The notes below the pieces were generated by a model. The model was not told the origin of the DNA, searched no databases, and worked only from the letters and a program-made list of their open reading frames with translations. A stretch of DNA of 64,000 nucleotides from Propionicimonas sp. (GTDB lineage: Bacteria > Actinomycetota > Actinomycetes > Propionibacteriales > Propionibacteriaceae). Position numbers and translations under genes: made by a program. Each line of letters starts with the position of its first letter. The first letter of the stretch is position 1. Shown piece after piece: positions 21,948 to 30,279 of this stretch. The stretch lies in the NCBI GenBank assembly GCA_013791955.1, contig VMSW01000007.1, forward strand, positions 1,116,001 to 1,180,000. Reading direction: 5' to 3'.

Positions 21948-24116
<2,169 letters not shown>

Positions 24117-24149
24117 GTCCACTCCGCCCCAAGCTGGTGCCTCACACGC

Positions 24150-24155
24150 TAGGTT
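24150..24155 (+). promoter_or_regulatory. Candidate -10 element for leaderless glgE
   Basis: TAGGTT fits the actinobacterial TANNNT -10 consensus and ends seven bases before the glgE GTG, so a transcript starting at the usual distance would begin at or next to the start codon. No Shine-Dalgarno is present. Inferred from position only. Confidence 0.45.
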
Positions 24156-24162
24156 TGGCCTT

Positions 24163-26304
24163 GTGAGCGCGAACCAAAGACCGCCCCGCAAACGTCCAGC
24201 TCCGGCCAAGGGCGGCCGGAAGATCGGACCACCAGCGGCCACGGACCCCCCGGCCAAAACGACCCGCACCGAGGTGCCGGCCACTGATCCAGCGGCCCCG
24301 GCTCCGGACGTGCCGATCCTCGATCTATCCCCGACGCTGGCAATCACCCGCGGCTTCGGTCGCATTCCAGTGCGCGCCGTCAGCCCGGTGGTAGAAGGCG
24401 GGGCCTATCCGGCGAAAGCCGTAGTGGGCGAGCTCATTCCGATCCGCGCCAAGGTCTTCCGGGAGGGCCACGACGCGGTCAACGCCTCAGTCATCCTCAC
24501 CGCCCCTGACGGCACCGAGCAGCGGATCGACCTGACCCCGATGGAGCCTCGCGGCCTGGACCCGTGGGAGGCCTGGGTCCGCCCCGACGTCCCTGGTGCC
24601 TGGAAGTTCCGCGTCGAGGGTTGGTCGGATCCCTGGGCGACCTGGTTGCACACTGCCGAAATCAAACTGCCGGCCGGCATCGACACCGAACTGGTCTGTT
24701 TGGAGGGACGCGCACTGCTGGAACGCACCGCGACGCGGGCCGAGGAGGCTGGGCAGACCGTCCAAGCAGCCATCCTGCGGGCCACCGCGATGCTGCTGCT
24801 GCCAGAGCGCCCCGCAGCTGATCTGCTCGAAGTGGCCACCGCTGGTGGCATCGTCGCGGCGATGGAGACCTACGGCCCCCGGGAGATGCTCTCCCCCACG
24901 GCCGATTTCGAACTCTTCGTCGACCGGAAGACCGCGCTCTTTGCCAGCTGGTATGAGTTTTTCCCCCGCTCGCTCGGCGCCACCTACAACACGCGCACCA
25001 AGAAGTGGACCTCCGGCACTTTCGACTCCTGCCACGCCCGGCTGGAAGAAGTCGCCGCCATGGGGTTCGACGTGGTCTATCTGCCACCCATCCACCCGAT
25101 CGGTAAGGCCTTCCGCAAAGGTCCGAACAACACCCTCGCCCCGCAGGCCAGTGACCCCGGCTCACCTTGGGCGATCGGTTCGGCGCAGGGCGGCCATGAC
25201 GCGATTCACCCCGAGTTGGGCGATTGGGACGCCTTCGACCGCTTCGTAGCCAAGGCCAAGTCGGTGGGCATGGAAGTCGCATTGGATTTCGCCCTCCAAG
25301 CCTCGCCTGATCACCCGTGGGTGCAAGGCCATCCCGAATGGTTCACCACCCGGCTGGACGGCACGATCGCCTACGCCGAGAACCCGCCGAAGAAGTACCA
25401 GGACATCTATCCGATCAACTTCGACAACGACCCGGCCGGGATTTATCGCGAAGTGGTTCGGCTGCTGAAGCTGTGGATCTCGCATGGGGTGAAGATCTTC
25501 CGAGTCGACAACCCACACACCAAGCCGGTGCAATTCTGGGCCTGGGTGCTGAAGCAAATCCGCGACTTCGATCCGGAGGTGCTGTTCCTGGCTGAGGCCT
25601 TCACCAAGCCCGAGATGATGCACGCTCTGGGCCGAGTTGGCTTCCACTCCAGCTACACCTACTTCACTTGGCGCGACACCAAGTGGGAGTTGACTGAGTA
25701 CCTCAACGAGCTGTCCAGCGAGACCGATTCGTTCTTCCGCCCGAACTTCTTCGTCAACACCCCAGACATCAACCCGACCTTCCTGCAATCGGGCAACCCG
25801 GCCGCCTTTGCCATCCGGGCAGTGCTGGCCGCGACGCTTTCACCTGCTTGGGGTGTCTACTCCGGTTTCGAACTCTTCGAGCACCTGCCGTTGCGTGCTG
25901 GCGGAGAGGAATACCTCGACTCGGAGAAGTACGAGTTCCGTCCCCGCGATTTCGCCGCCGAGCCCAATCTGAACCTGCTGATCGGTCGGCTGAATGAGAT
26001 CCGGAAGGCGCATCCCGCCTTCCAGCAGCTGCGGCAGCTCCGCTTCCTGGTCGCCCCGCACGATGACGTCCTGGCCTTCACCAAGACCGACGGTAACGAC
26101 ACCATGATCGTGATCTGCAGCCTCAATCCAAACCAGACCGTGGAGACTGAAGTCTCCCTTGACCTGCCAGCGCTGGGCATTCCTACCGGCTCAGTGCAAC
26201 TGCGTGATGAGCTCACCGGCTCCACTTTCACTTGGAGTGAGTCCAATTTCGTCCGGCTCACCCCGGCCACCCCTGCGCACATCCTGCACGTCGTGGGACG
26301 GTGA
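24163..26304 (+). CDS. glgE: Alpha-1,4-glucan:maltose-1-phosphate maltosyltransferase
   Basis: Extends alpha-1,4-glucan using maltose 1-phosphate. The 713-residue GH13_3 protein has a Lys/Pro/Ala-rich disordered tail (about 1-50), an N-terminal beta domain, and a barrel with nucleophile Asp in KIFRVDNPHTKP (about 448) and acid/base Glu in LFLAEAFTKP (about 477); YLPPIHPIGKAFRKG (about 306) is diagnostic. I chose GTG 24163 because it follows the glgX stop and places the tail at normal length. Its substrate is made by maltokinase (next gene) or by GlgM. Confidence 0.95.
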   Translation: MSANQRPPRKRPAPAKGGRKIGPPAATDPPAKTTRTEVPATDPAAPAPDVPILDLSPTLAITRGFGRIPVRAVSPVVEGGAYPAKAVVGELIPIRAKVFREGHDAVNASVILTAPDGTEQRIDLTPMEPRGLDPWEAWVRPDVPGAWKFRVEGWSDPWATWLHTAEIKLPAGIDTELVCLEGRALLERTATRAEEAGQTVQAAILRATAMLLLPERPAADLLEVATAGGIVAAMETYGPREMLSPTADFELFVDRKTALFASWYEFFPRSLGATYNTRTKKWTSGTFDSCHARLEEVAAMGFDVVYLPPIHPIGKAFRKGPNNTLAPQASDPGSPWAIGSAQGGHDAIHPELGDWDAFDRFVAKAKSVGMEVALDFALQASPDHPWVQGHPEWFTTRLDGTIAYAENPPKKYQDIYPINFDNDPAGIYREVVRLLKLWISHGVKIFRVDNPHTKPVQFWAWVLKQIRDFDPEVLFLAEAFTKPEMMHALGRVGFHSSYTYFTWRDTKWELTEYLNELSSETDSFFRPNFFVNTPDINPTFLQSGNPAAFAIRAVLAATLSPAWGVYSGFELFEHLPLRAGGEEYLDSEKYEFRPRDFAAEPNLNLLIGRLNEIRKAHPAFQQLRQLRFLVAPHDDVLAFTKTDGNDTMIVICSLNPNQTVETEVSLDLPALGIPTGSVQLRDELTGSTFTWSESNFVRLTPATPAHILHVVGR

Positions 26305-29300
26305 CCCACTGTCCGGCGAAGAGGCGTGGCGGGCCTATCTAGAGCAGGCCCGCTGGTTCGGCGGCAAAGGCCGTCAATACCGGGTTGCTTCGTTGACCCC
26401 CCTGCCGTGGTACACCGCCTTGCCAAGTTGGCCCGCGTTGCGCTCTGAGTTGGCAGTGATCGACTACGGCGACGGTCAGACCGAGACCTACCACCTGCTG
26501 GCCGGCTACCGCCCGGTTGGATCGGCGGCGTCGGCGCCGTCCATCGGACGCCTGGTACTACCTGAGCTAGGCGAGGTGGAGTTGTTCGAGATCGCCACCG
26601 ATGCCGAAGCCCGAGCTGCTTTCGTCGCAGCGCTGGTCGAGCAACCACCCGCGGGCATGAACTGGCTTGACCACTCCTGGTTCAACAGCTCCGATCAGGT
26701 GGGACTGTTTTCCGGAGAGCAGAGCAACTCCAATCTGCTAATCGGCGACCGCGCCTTGCTGAAGGTATTCCGCCGGCTGGAACCAGGACCAAATCTGGAC
26801 GCCGAAGTGCTGGCCGCCCTAAACGGCAGCCAGCTCACTCCGGCCCTCTACGGCACGCTCAGCCACCAGGGCACCGACTTGGCGATGGTGAGCGAGCTGG
26901 TGCCCGCCGCTGGCGATGGCTGGAGCCTGGCCACCAGTGCCTGTGCCGCGGGCGCGGACTTCACCGAAGCGGCCGCCGAACTGGGCACCGCGTTGCGATC
27001 ACTGCACCTGCACTTGGCGCAGACCTACCCGGTCACGGTGGCCGCCGGCGCCGAGATCGCCGCCCAGATGCAGCGTCGGCTGGCGAGCGCACTGGCCGAG
27101 GCCCCGGTGTTGGCCCCCTACGCCGAGGCTTTGCGGGGCACCTTCGACCAACTCGACGGTGCTGAGGTTGCCGTCCAACAGATCCATCGCGACTTTCACC
27201 TCGGCCAGGTGCTGCGGCGCCGTGCGGGTGGCTGGGCGATTATCGATTTTGAGGGCGAGCCGTTGACCAGCGCCGCCGAGCGACGTCGCCCCGATTCGGT
27301 ATGGCGCGATGTCGCTGGCGCCCTACGCAGTTTCGACTACGCCCGCAGCGCCCACCAGGCACCCGATTCCGACTCGGTGCGACAGTGGAGTCGCGAGGCC
27401 AGGCAGGCTTTCCTAGCTGCTTACCTTGGATCAGACCAGCTCCCGATCCAAGTACTGCGCGCCTACGAGCTGGACAAGGCCGTGTATGAAGTTCGTTACG
27501 AACTTCGAAACCGCCCTGTTTGGGCCCACATCCCACTCAGGGCAGTCCAAGATGAACTAACCGAGCTCCCCAGCGAGCCCCCGGTTCCCAAGCAAGGAGT
27601 AGCAATGGCACACGACCCCGCAGGCGGGCTGACCGGTTGGGATCTCGAAGGATTCCACAACGGTGGGGACACCGAATGCTGGCGTCGATTGGGTGCCCAC
27701 GAAATGACCGTGTTCGACGATGCCCGAGGCGAGGTGCAGGGCACCCGGTTTGCGGTTTGGGCGCCGAACGCCCGTGAGGTTCGGCTAAATGCCGATTTCA
27801 ACTGGTGGACCGGCGATGCGATGCATCTGGTGCCCGGCTCCGGAATCTGGGCGCTGTTCGTCGAGGGCGTCGGCGCTGGAACTTTGTACAAGTTCAACAT
27901 TCTAGGCGCGGACGGTACCTGGCGGGAGAAGGTCGATCCGGTGGCGTTCTTCGCCGAAATGGCCCCGGCCAACTCCTCCATCGTCTACACCTCCAAATTC
28001 GTCTGGGGCGATGAAGAGTGGCTGAGCCGGCGCGCTCAGACTCGGCCCCACGCCGAGCCGATGAGCATCTACGAGGTGCATCTGTCCTCCTGGCGTAAAG
28101 GCAAGACCTATCTCGAGCTGGCCGATGAGCTGGTCGAGTACGTCACCTGGCAGGGATTCACCCATGTGGAGTTCATGCCGGTCACCGAACACCCTTACGA
28201 GCCGAGTTGGGGTTACCAGGTCACCAACTACTTCGCCCCCCAATCGAGGCTGGGTCGCCCTGACGAGTTCCGCTACCTCGTCGATCGGCTGCACCAGGCT
28301 GGCATCGGCGTGATTCTGGATTGGGTGCCCGGCCACTTCCCCAAGGACGAGTGGGCGCTGGGACGGTTCGACGGCACCGCGCTCTATGAGCATGCCGATC
28401 CCCGTCAGGGCGAACATAAGGAGTGGGGCACCTATATCTTCAACTACGGCCGCAACGAGGTGAAGTCGTTCCTGGTCTCCAACGCGTTGTACTGGGTGAC
28501 TGAGTTCCACATCGATGCGCTGCGGGTGGACGCGGTGGCGTCCATGCTCTACCTGGACTACTCCCGCAATGAGGGTGAATGGGTACCCAACATCCACGGC
28601 GGTCGGGAGAATTTGGACGCCATCGACTTCCTGCGCTACGTCAACAAACATCTGTACGAGCGGGTGCCCGGCGTAGTGATGATCGCTGAGGAGTCGACCT
28701 CGTTCCCCGGCGTGACCAAGCCGGTCCACGAAGGCGGCCTCGGCTTCGGTTTCAAGTGGAACATGGGCTGGATGAACGACTCGCTGCGCTACCTAGCCTT
28801 AGAGCCGATCTACCGGCAGTACCACCACAACGACATGACCTTCGCCATGGTCTATGCCCACTCGGAGAACTTCGTGCTGCCGATCTCCCATGACGAGGTG
28901 GTGCACGGCAAGGGCTCGATGATCAACAAGGTGCCCCAGGACACGTGGCGCCAATTCGCCACTTTGCGGGCCTTCTACTCCTTCATGTGGGCCTTCCCGG
29001 GCAAGAAGCTCATCTTCGCTGGGTGTGAGTTCGGCCAGCGCAGCGAGTTCAACGAAGCCGTCAGTCTGGAGTGGTGGGTGAGCGAGCTGTGGGGCCATCA
29101 CGGCCTCCAGCGCATGTTCAAGGACCTAAACGAGATCTACCGCGCCCATCCGGCCTTCTGGGAGCTCGATTCTTCTCCGGACGGCTTCCGCTGGATCAAC
29201 GCCGATGATGCTGGTGCGAACACGTTCTCCTGGGTTCGCACTGACGCTGAAGGCCGCCACCTGGCCGCAGTGGTGAACTTCTCCTCCGAGCCGTGGACGG

Positions 29301-29506
29301 CCTATCGAATCGGGTTGCCGGCCACCGGCGCCTGGACGGAGATCTACAACTCCGACGCCGGGGTTTACGACGGCACCGACAACTTCGGCAACCTTGGCCA
29401 GGTGACCGCGACCACTGAGGGCTGGAACGGGCTGCCGGCCAGCGCCACCATCGTGGTGCCGCCGCTTGGCGCGGTGTACTTCGCCCACGCTCCGGAGCAG
29501 CATTGA
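26237..29506 (+). CDS. Maltokinase fused in frame to 1,4-alpha-glucan branching enzyme
   Basis: One uninterrupted frame encodes both enzymes. The maltokinase half (about 30-450) has QARWFGGKGRQ near its start, the catalytic-loop-like QQIHRDFHLGQVL and the metal-site IIDFEGEP, and ends after the family's usual terminal ELRNRPVWAHIPLRAV. The GlgB half begins at Met457 (27605): CBM48 (TRFAVWAPNAREVRLNADF), nucleophile Asp in ALRVDAVASMLYLDYSR, acid/base Glu in MIAEESTSFPGV. A linker of about 20 residues, without a stop, joins them. The true 5-prime start is uncertain: GTG 26237 lies inside glgE, ATG 26207 is an alternative, and the homologous region starts around 26312. Mak phosphorylates maltose with ATP; GlgB makes alpha-1,6 branches. 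Confidence 0.88.
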   Translation: MSPISSGSPRPPLRTSCTSWDGDPLSGEEAWRAYLEQARWFGGKGRQYRVASLTPLPWYTALPSWPALRSELAVIDYGDGQTETYHLLAGYRPVGSAASAPSIGRLVLPELGEVELFEIATDAEARAAFVAALVEQPPAGMNWLDHSWFNSSDQVGLFSGEQSNSNLLIGDRALLKVFRRLEPGPNLDAEVLAALNGSQLTPALYGTLSHQGTDLAMVSELVPAAGDGWSLATSACAAGADFTEAAAELGTALRSLHLHLAQTYPVTVAAGAEIAAQMQRRLASALAEAPVLAPYAEALRGTFDQLDGAEVAVQQIHRDFHLGQVLRRRAGGWAIIDFEGEPLTSAAERRRPDSVWRDVAGALRSFDYARSAHQAPDSDSVRQWSREARQAFLAAYLGSDQLPIQVLRAYELDKAVYEVRYELRNRPVWAHIPLRAVQDELTELPSEPPVPKQGVAMAHDPAGGLTGWDLEGFHNGGDTECWRRLGAHEMTVFDDARGEVQGTRFAVWAPNAREVRLNADFNWWTGDAMHLVPGSGIWALFVEGVGAGTLYKFNILGADGTWREKVDPVAFFAEMAPANSSIVYTSKFVWGDEEWLSRRAQTRPHAEPMSIYEVHLSSWRKGKTYLELADELVEYVTWQGFTHVEFMPVTEHPYEPSWGYQVTNYFAPQSRLGRPDEFRYLVDRLHQAGIGVILDWVPGHFPKDEWALGRFDGTALYEHADPRQGEHKEWGTYIFNYGRNEVKSFLVSNALYWVTEFHIDALRVDAVASMLYLDYSRNEGEWVPNIHGGRENLDAIDFLRYVNKHLYERVPGVVMIAEESTSFPGVTKPVHEGGLGFGFKWNMGWMNDSLRYLALEPIYRQYHHNDMTFAMVYAHSENFVLPISHDEVVHGKGSMINKVPQDTWRQFATLRAFYSFMWAFPGKKLIFAGCEFGQRSEFNEAVSLEWWVSELWGHHGLQRMFKDLNEIYRAHPAFWELDSSPDGFRWINADDAGANTFSWVRTDAEGRHLAAVVNFSSEPWTAYRIGLPATGAWTEIYNSDAGVYDGTDNFGNLGQVTATTEGWNGLPASATIVVPPLGAVYFAHAPEQH
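27594..27607 (+). promoter_or_regulatory. glgB: Internal Shine-Dalgarno and ATG for separate GlgB
   Basis: AAGGAG at 27594-27599 lies five bases before an in-frame ATG at 27605, the best ribosome site in this cluster. Initiation here yields a 633-residue GlgB of standard bacterial length starting MAHDPAGG. It implies that free GlgB is made from the same message even if read-through makes the fused protein. Confidence 0.75.
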
Positions 29507-30279
29507 GCGCTGACCAGTTGCCATTGAGCGTCCGCGATGGGTCGGCCGTCGCCGATTTCACCGCCGACGTGCCAGCAGAGCGCTACGACGCGTTACTTGC
29601 GCAGGCTTGCGAGTTGGCTTTCGCTGATCCGGCCGTACGTCGCCTCGAGGTGCTCGTCGCCGCCCCGGACTGGCCCCGTCGCCGCGCCTTGCACCGGGCT
29701 GGCTTCCGCCTGGACGGGGTGCTGCGGGCGCGGCTGGCGGGCAACCCGGACCCCATCGATGAGTGCCACTACTCACTCCTGCGCGGCGATTCGGTCGAGG
29801 GCCGCGAGGCCTTCACTGCGGTGATGAACACCGTCACCGCCCGCAAGCGGGTGATTGCGCACCTGCTGCTCACCGACGCCGACGGACGGGTCTGCGCGCT
29901 GGAAACCACCTTCAAACCAGATTACGAGCTACCTGGCGGCATTCTCGAGCCGGGTGAGAGCCCCCGCGAGGGGCTGGTCCGCGAAGCCGTGGAGGAACTC
30001 GATTTCCCGTTGGCGGTCGGTCGACTGCTGGTGGTGGATTGGCTGGCGCCCTACCTCGGCTGGGAGGACGCCGTCGAGCTGGTCTTCGATGGTGGCGTGT
30101 TCACTGAGGCGGACGCACTGCACGCAGACGGTCGCGAGATTCGGGCGGTGCACTGGCTGGAACCTGCTGCCGCAGAAGCCGTGATGGCCCCCTACGCCCA
30201 GGGACGGCTGCGCGCGGCCCTTTCAGCGCGTGCGGCTGGCCAGACGCTGTACCTCGAAGCCGGGCAGCTGATCAGCTGA
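29503..30279 (+). CDS. Nudix hydrolase with N-terminal GNAT-like segment
   Basis: A 258-residue protein. Residues about 1-95 look like the last part of a GNAT acetyltransferase fold (RRALHRAGFRLDGVLRARL then YSLLRGD), too short for a full catalytic domain. Residues about 115-250 form a Nudix domain with the box GILEPGESPREG followed by LVREAVEELDF: GX5EX7REUXEEX with Asp in place of the final Gly. The TTG start overlaps the glgB stop (TTGA), so it is coupled to the glucan cluster. Substrate unknown; it may clean up a nucleotide sugar or be a house-cleaning enzyme. Confidence 0.82.
   Translation: MSADQLPLSVRDGSAVADFTADVPAERYDALLAQACELAFADPAVRRLEVLVAAPDWPRRRALHRAGFRLDGVLRARLAGNPDPIDECHYSLLRGDSVEGREAFTAVMNTVTARKRVIAHLLLTDADGRVCALETTFKPDYELPGGILEPGESPREGLVREAVEELDFPLAVGRLLVVDWLAPYLGWEDAVELVFDGGVFTEADALHADGREIRAVHWLEPAAAEAVMAPYAQGRLRAALSARAAGQTLYLEAGQLIS

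Follow-up and report, generated by a model that had tools for sequence, protein, structure and literature searches.

A stop-free maltokinase-branching enzyme gene in Propionicimonas with an inner GlgB start and a putative second product

Can one uninterrupted reading frame supply both a fused maltokinase-branching enzyme and a free branching enzyme? The question is raised by a locus in Propionicimonas sp. (Actinomycetota; Propionibacteriaceae; GenBank assembly GCA_013791955.1, here G000), a genome of 3.1 Mb in 11 contigs. The window, that is, the whole stretch of DNA analysed, comprises 64,000 nucleotides of contig VMSW01000007.1 (C1, 1116001-1180000), and positions below are those of the window unless a contig is named; all features described lie on the + strand. 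An earlier note, made from these letters by themselves, had reported that no stop codon separates a maltokinase (Mak) domain from a GlgB branching enzyme domain and that a strong Shine-Dalgarno (SD) sequence precedes GlgB within the shared frame. The frame 26237-29506 was indeed found to be stop-free across the Mak and GlgB regions, and the open junction is common to a sister genome, G118. We consider it probable, at roughly 75%, that this one gene gives rise to a Mak-GlgB protein of ~119 kDa and, from the inner start, to a free GlgB of 72 kDa, and that it was born by a frame change. The idea of two products is the most valuable part of this reading; it is inferential for G000 but strongly supported by a sequence constraint in a large set of comparable fusions that is described below.

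The GlgB domain begins with ATG 27605 (27605..29506) and is preceded, after a spacing of five bases, by AAGGAG at 27594-27599, which confirms the coordinates given in the earlier note. This internal SD is itself translated within the fused frame, where it is read as CAA-GGA-GTA-GCA-ATG. Among all ATG codons of the fused open reading frame (ORF), ATG 27605 has the best SD, and none of 186 control windows of the same length equalled it. The SD/anti-SD duplex energy was -8.0, compared with -4.2 to -9.1 in 23 same-genus relatives other than G118. Within 27542-27604 the two frames not used by the fusion are closed, one by TAA 27558 and TAG 27600 and the other by TGA 27553. The out-of-frame TAG (27600..27602) is a probable relic of the former Mak stop, as judged from the Mak ends of unfused relatives. 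Between G000 and G118, the stretch from -1 to +98 around ATG 27605 forms the second-longest difference-free run in the ORF, and six differences fall within the 66 bases of tail and linker, although a comparison of two genomes has no power for a codon-level test of constraint.

The N-terminal domain (26309..27565, start uncertain) is a predicted maltokinase (Mak/Pep2, EC 2.7.1.175). Three solved maltokinases, 4u94, 4o7o and 5jy7, were matched by phmmer, the best being 4u94 with an E value of 4e-51. In the alignment to 4u94, the catalytic Asp, the Mg-binding Gln (Gln310), the DFE motif and the phosphate-binding Lys were all present, with the aligned segments reading IHRDFHLGQ, DFE and ALLKVF and the HGD motif appearing as HRD; the residue roles are those given in the available portion of PMC4306142. 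The C-terminal domain was classed as a GlgB branching enzyme (GH13_9), as it scored above the cut-offs of three NCBIfam GlgB equivalogs (PRK05402, 901 against 741 bits; PRK12313, 858 against 577; TIGR01515, 844 against 464) and matched 3k1d with an E value of 1e-231. Initiation at ATG 27605 would give a GlgB of ~633 residues. The "normal length" ascribed to it earlier therefore holds for its own family, in which this size is usual, but ~100 N-terminal residues that stand ahead of the matched region in M. tuberculosis GlgB are missing here. An AlphaFold2 model of the fused product, built from a 59-row alignment, had a mean predicted local distance difference test score (pLDDT) of 79.9 and a predicted template modelling score of 0.55. 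Mak was modelled confidently to residue 416 (numbered from 26315), with pLDDT mostly above 85; residues 418-432, which span the frame-shifted Mak tail and the GlgB Met, fell below 50; and GlgB was of mixed confidence, with several loops below 50 and the relative placement of the domains not predicted. The model fits a flexible tether between Mak and GlgB, and the linker at 27566..27604, which is the frame-shifted Mak tail, is probably disordered.

Thirty genomes of the genus were searched, and the junction was read in 25 of them, excluding G121, G124, G131, G132 and G135. A second open fusion was found in G118, whose protein is 97% identical to that of G000. The two loci aligned over 6267 columns with 0 gaps and 339 differences (5.4% DNA divergence), and the G118 tail has the same length as that of G000, with C runs of different composition. 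The ratio of nonsynonymous to synonymous divergence (dN/dS) between the two genomes was 0.09 in the Mak domain and 0.02 in that of GlgB, at a synonymous divergence (dS) of ~0.2, and purifying selection acts on both domains. Over the 21 codons that lead up to the ATG, four changes were nonsynonymous and one was synonymous. Mak lies beside GlgB in 18 of the 25 loci; the junction is open in two (G000 and G118), and in the remaining 16 a Mak stop stands before or at the GlgB start, at offsets from -2 to -22. An alignment of orthologues, which the earlier note had proposed as a check, gave a stop-free junction in the sister genome and a stop elsewhere. Mak ends in Lys-Glu-stop or Lys-Glu-X-stop in 8 of the 16 unfused loci, the Lys-Glu being encoded by the GlgB SD AAGGAG, and in G129 this end reads AAG GAG TAG. 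The free GlgB proteins of the same genus have the same start codon position, a similar SD and 80-89% identity to GlgB here; unlike here, they are encoded by separate genes, and where Mak is a neighbour, it stops no later than the GlgB start.

The length of the Mak tail, taken from GATGA(A/G) to AAGGAG, was measurable in 10 of the 25 loci. It is 36 or 39 nt in seven unfused loci and 37 nt in both G000 and G118. Since the tail is 37 nt as against 36 or 39 nt in unfused relatives, a net +1 change would have shifted Mak into the GlgB frame. The exception, G119 (L057), is a near-fusion in which a 40-nt tail puts Mak in the GlgB frame and a TGA 15 nt before the ATG stops it. G000 and G118 group as sisters (100/99) in a 61-row tree of GlgB, surrounded by unfused relatives, and the fused state requires at least four changes within the family. 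These comparisons indicate that the fusion is real and derived, and that it arose recently in this lineage. The earlier suggestion of a recent shift of frame, with a TAG stranded out of frame at the SD, fits both the tail lengths and the Mak ends of the relatives.

At the other seven of the 25 same-genus loci (L025, L066, L067, L032, L034, L068 and L069), Mak was not present in the fetched upstream stretch, and the genomes concerned, at 1.6-2.7 Mb, are smaller than most of the genus. In G032 and G102 a Mak match lies on a different contig. In G058 (L054), Mak matches are spread over several frames, as in a broken gene or with assembly indels.

The Mak-GlgB architecture is not new and recurs in actinobacteria. 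The earlier view that the enzymes of this pathway are otherwise separate, or joined only as TreS-Mak, was wrong. The NCBIfam model NF011293 (PRK14705), of 1224 positions, is a Mak-GlgB fusion like the window protein, with a description that mentions the branching enzyme only; its GlgB carries an extra N-terminal region that is absent from the window protein. The latter scored 1031 bits against a cut-off of 2376, with its best stretch confined to the GlgB part (607-1223), and it shares the NF011293 architecture without being counted as a member. The protein of G144 covers NF011293 from 1 to 1224 above the cut-off, and its first half matches Mak. In the genus of G144, 79 of 81 genomes carry the complete fusion in a single open frame and 77 of 81 exceed the cut-off, the fused total leaving out G873 and G896, which gave partial matches. 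In the family of G144, probably that of Arthrobacter, a single stop-free match spans both halves in at least 41 of 149 genomes.

The window's own family was represented by 117 genomes, in which the junctions followed up were those in long open frames and some others. Further fusions were found there in G034, G009, G004 and G019, giving at least five fused genomes, or at least six with G118. The G004 fusion (L192) has a linker of Pro/Ala/Asp repeats without an internal start, unlike the rest of the family. Outside the family, fusions were found in G144, G372, G276, G415, G453, G444, G522, G298, G443 and G934, and also in Leekyejoonella antrihumi and Ornithinimicrobium laminariae. At L320 and L321 the Mak match lies in the open GlgB window but off the GlgB frame, and these loci were not counted as fused. 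That the fusion is unprecedented is ruled out by NF011293, by its presence in 79 of 81 genomes of the genus of G144 and by the other fusions.

The inner start was compared in 46 fused ORFs, in each of which the SD of an ATG between the Mak end and the first GlgB anchor was set against windows of the same length elsewhere; L132 (partial Mak match), L166 (cut by the locus end), L318 and L333 were excluded. Outside family f3, 12 of 16 fused ORFs, not all of them mutually independent, beat every control window. These were G000, G118, G034, G009, G019, three of family f48, two of family f40, G298 and G443; families f48 and f40 have too few fused genomes for a constraint test, and in them the reading covered the presence of an SD-start. 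The fraction was 0.18 in G522, and no boundary ATG was found in G004, Leekyejoonella or Ornithinimicrobium. Over all 46 ORFs, the fraction was at most 0.1 in 27. Some of the ORFs that lack an ATG have a GTG with an SD (e.g. L238), and in L221 such a GTG stands beside a weak ATG. It is a new observation that in many Mak-GlgB fusions the fused frame still contains the SD and ATG of GlgB.

Constraint on the inner start was assessed at the codon level in 86 distinct fused ORFs of genus g31, the genus of G144 (L155, L211-217 and L240-317), with a median codon identity of 0.44 over 400 sampled pairs. The boundary Met codon is ATG in 85 of these ORFs and GTG in one. The inner SD codons are GAA-GGT in 86 of 86, which with the preceding G gives GGAAGGT, and the flanking codons vary in amino acid. 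Among 517 columns invariant in amino acid (Met and Trp excluded), nine are also invariant in codon: four Phe, two Asp, one Asn, the SD GAA and the SD GGT. The two SD codons are the sole codon-invariant columns among 36 of Glu and 68 of Gly, and GGT makes up 1620 of the 11087 Gly codons in these ORFs. If columns of the same amino acid can be exchanged for one another, the probability that these two and no others would be the invariant ones is ~1/36 x 1/68. The simplest cause in g31 is selection for an internal ribosome-binding site that serves free GlgB.

We propose that G000 and G118 descend from an ancestor in which a net +1 change close to the 3' end of mak put mak in the frame of glgB and bypassed the former stop. 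Ribosomes from the mak start would then read on across a flexible linker into glgB, yielding the ~119 kDa Mak-GlgB, whose production we infer. The ribosome-binding site of the former glgB start is still intact, as is ATG 27605, and the two would probably allow free 72-kDa GlgB to be made by internal initiation, which is supported by the strict synonymous conservation of the corresponding inner start in the g31 fusions. The two products suggested in the earlier note have gained independent support from that constraint, and for this genome they are putative. The supplier of maltose 1-phosphate would be covalently tied to the enzyme that branches the product, with GlgB independently made in excess of Mak, and the linkage presumably has a use. 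More broadly, we lean towards the view that actinobacterial Mak-GlgB genes in many lineages are nested, encoding a bifunctional Mak-GlgB and a free GlgB from a kept internal ribosome-binding site, with the ratio of linked to free enzyme set by translation; the window would then show such a gene arising through one net frame change where two neighbouring genes meet.

Several observations weigh against the proposal of two products from one gene. The fusion was found in just two genomes of this lineage. Across fusions the inner start is common but not universal: a boundary ATG is missing in 11 of the 46 fused ORFs, only 5 of 30 in family f3 beat every control window, and two products are not obligatory. 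Loss of the stop beside the GlgB start also means that there is no ordinary stop-start coupling, and free GlgB may be made more weakly. Moreover, the true start of Mak is unsure, the candidates being GTG 26237, ACG 26288 and CTG 26309. GTG 26237 lies 68 nt inside glgE and has no SD evident by eye. In most relatives an ATG or GTG lies at most ~12 codons upstream of the first conserved Mak residues, again by eye, and no ATG, GTG or TTG stands just before the conserved Mak start in G000 (26237-26311). ACG 26288, present in G000 and G118, occupies the site of an ATG in G008 and G109, and CTG 26309 comes after the glgE stop. The single difference between G000 and G118 in 26237-26288 is silent in GlgE (GCC to GCT, by eye) but replaces Pro by Leu when read as Mak, so GTG 26237 is weakly disfavoured. 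A non-canonical Mak start is possible.

The alternative that survives best is neutral drift, in which the genes are joined in frame whenever the Mak tail happens to shift, selection acts on the separate activities only and the fused frame has no role. The way in which stop position and tail length wander among relatives suits this account, as do G119, which is in the same frame yet retains a stop, and the four nonsynonymous changes to one synonymous in the linker. The fusion has nevertheless been kept over a dS of ~0.2 here and is the rule in the genus of G144, and we regard drift as a tentative explanation, somewhat doubtful on balance. It bears on the function of the fusion rather than its existence and is compatible with two products. 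We find it unlikely that all GlgB is made as Mak-GlgB and that the inner SD-ATG is what is left, in decay, of the ancestral start of glgB. Such an account agrees with the fused ORFs that lack an internal ATG, such as that of G004 with its Pro-rich linker, and the fusion is young enough here for relics to survive. However, the SD strength is within that seen in unfused relatives, the difference-free stretch at -1 to +98 is the second longest of the ORF between G000 and G118, and the absolute synonymous constraint on the g31 inner SD is not expected of a relic. A sequencing or assembly error, in which a spurious base in the mak tail links two separate genes, is very improbable despite the stop in 16 of 18 loci, the C runs within the tail and the matches in several frames in G058, which errors would produce, since G118, at 5.4% divergence, has a tail of equal length, C runs of different composition and no indels in 6267 columns, and since G034, G009, G004 and G019 carry other open fusions; as the only cause, it is rejected on the strength of G118. 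The earlier note had raised a one-base error as its alternative, to be recognised by a stop in relatives together with a bad base at the junction; the stop was found, and the sister genome speaks against the bad base.

Upstream of the fused gene, on the same strand, lie glgX and glgE. The GlgX debranching enzyme (21948..24116) scored above the TIGR02100 cut-off, and the GlgE maltosyltransferase (24043..26304), assigned from PF11896 and PF21702, is encoded directly upstream, with its 3' end overlapping the fused frame. The frames of glgX and glgE have 74 nt in common (24043-24116), and the start of glgE is uncertain. An ORF at 29503-30279 overlaps the 3' end of the GlgB region and appears, by eye, to be acetyltransferase-like in its first half and NUDIX-like in its second. 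A TreS above the TIGR02456 cut-off was not found in the G000 genome, where the best score was 237 against 678 bits; the loci concerned are G000:C2:210672-212180 (L335) and 230155-230775 (L334). This leaves the origin of the maltose used by Mak in doubt.

In-frame internal initiation gives two proteins per gene in IF2 (infB), ClpB and CheA. SpaO and AerR are reportedly further cases. In these cases an in-frame inner SD-start leads to a shorter C-terminal product, as proposed here; unlike them, the inner start at this locus would be a former gene start kept after fusion, and the short form would be a complete enzyme. The literature searched yielded no paper that describes Mak fused to GlgB or GlgB initiated internally, and either may be described elsewhere. 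The genes of the GlgE pathway were reportedly surveyed by Chandra and colleagues in 2011. Covalent joining of Mak to a pathway neighbour is known from TreS-Mak (TreS-Pep2) fusions, according to the available portions of PMC11046441, PMC4306142 and PMC6509496; there the partner is TreS and Mak is C-terminal, which differs from Mak-GlgB here. In Arthrobacter sp. PAMC25564, the branching-enzyme gene is placed at 4148869-4145174 in the accessible part of PMC8171050, and its ~3.7 kb is the size of a fusion; the term maltokinase did not turn up in the available main text of that paper.

If our reading is correct, proteins annotated merely as long branching enzymes would be bifunctional and would have an unannotated short form. 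The locus would be a clean example of a gene fusion in which the inner gene is still independently translated, and this would explain how such a fusion is tolerated at birth, as GlgB is not lost. The reason for joining Mak to GlgB would then become testable by way of the fused and free forms.

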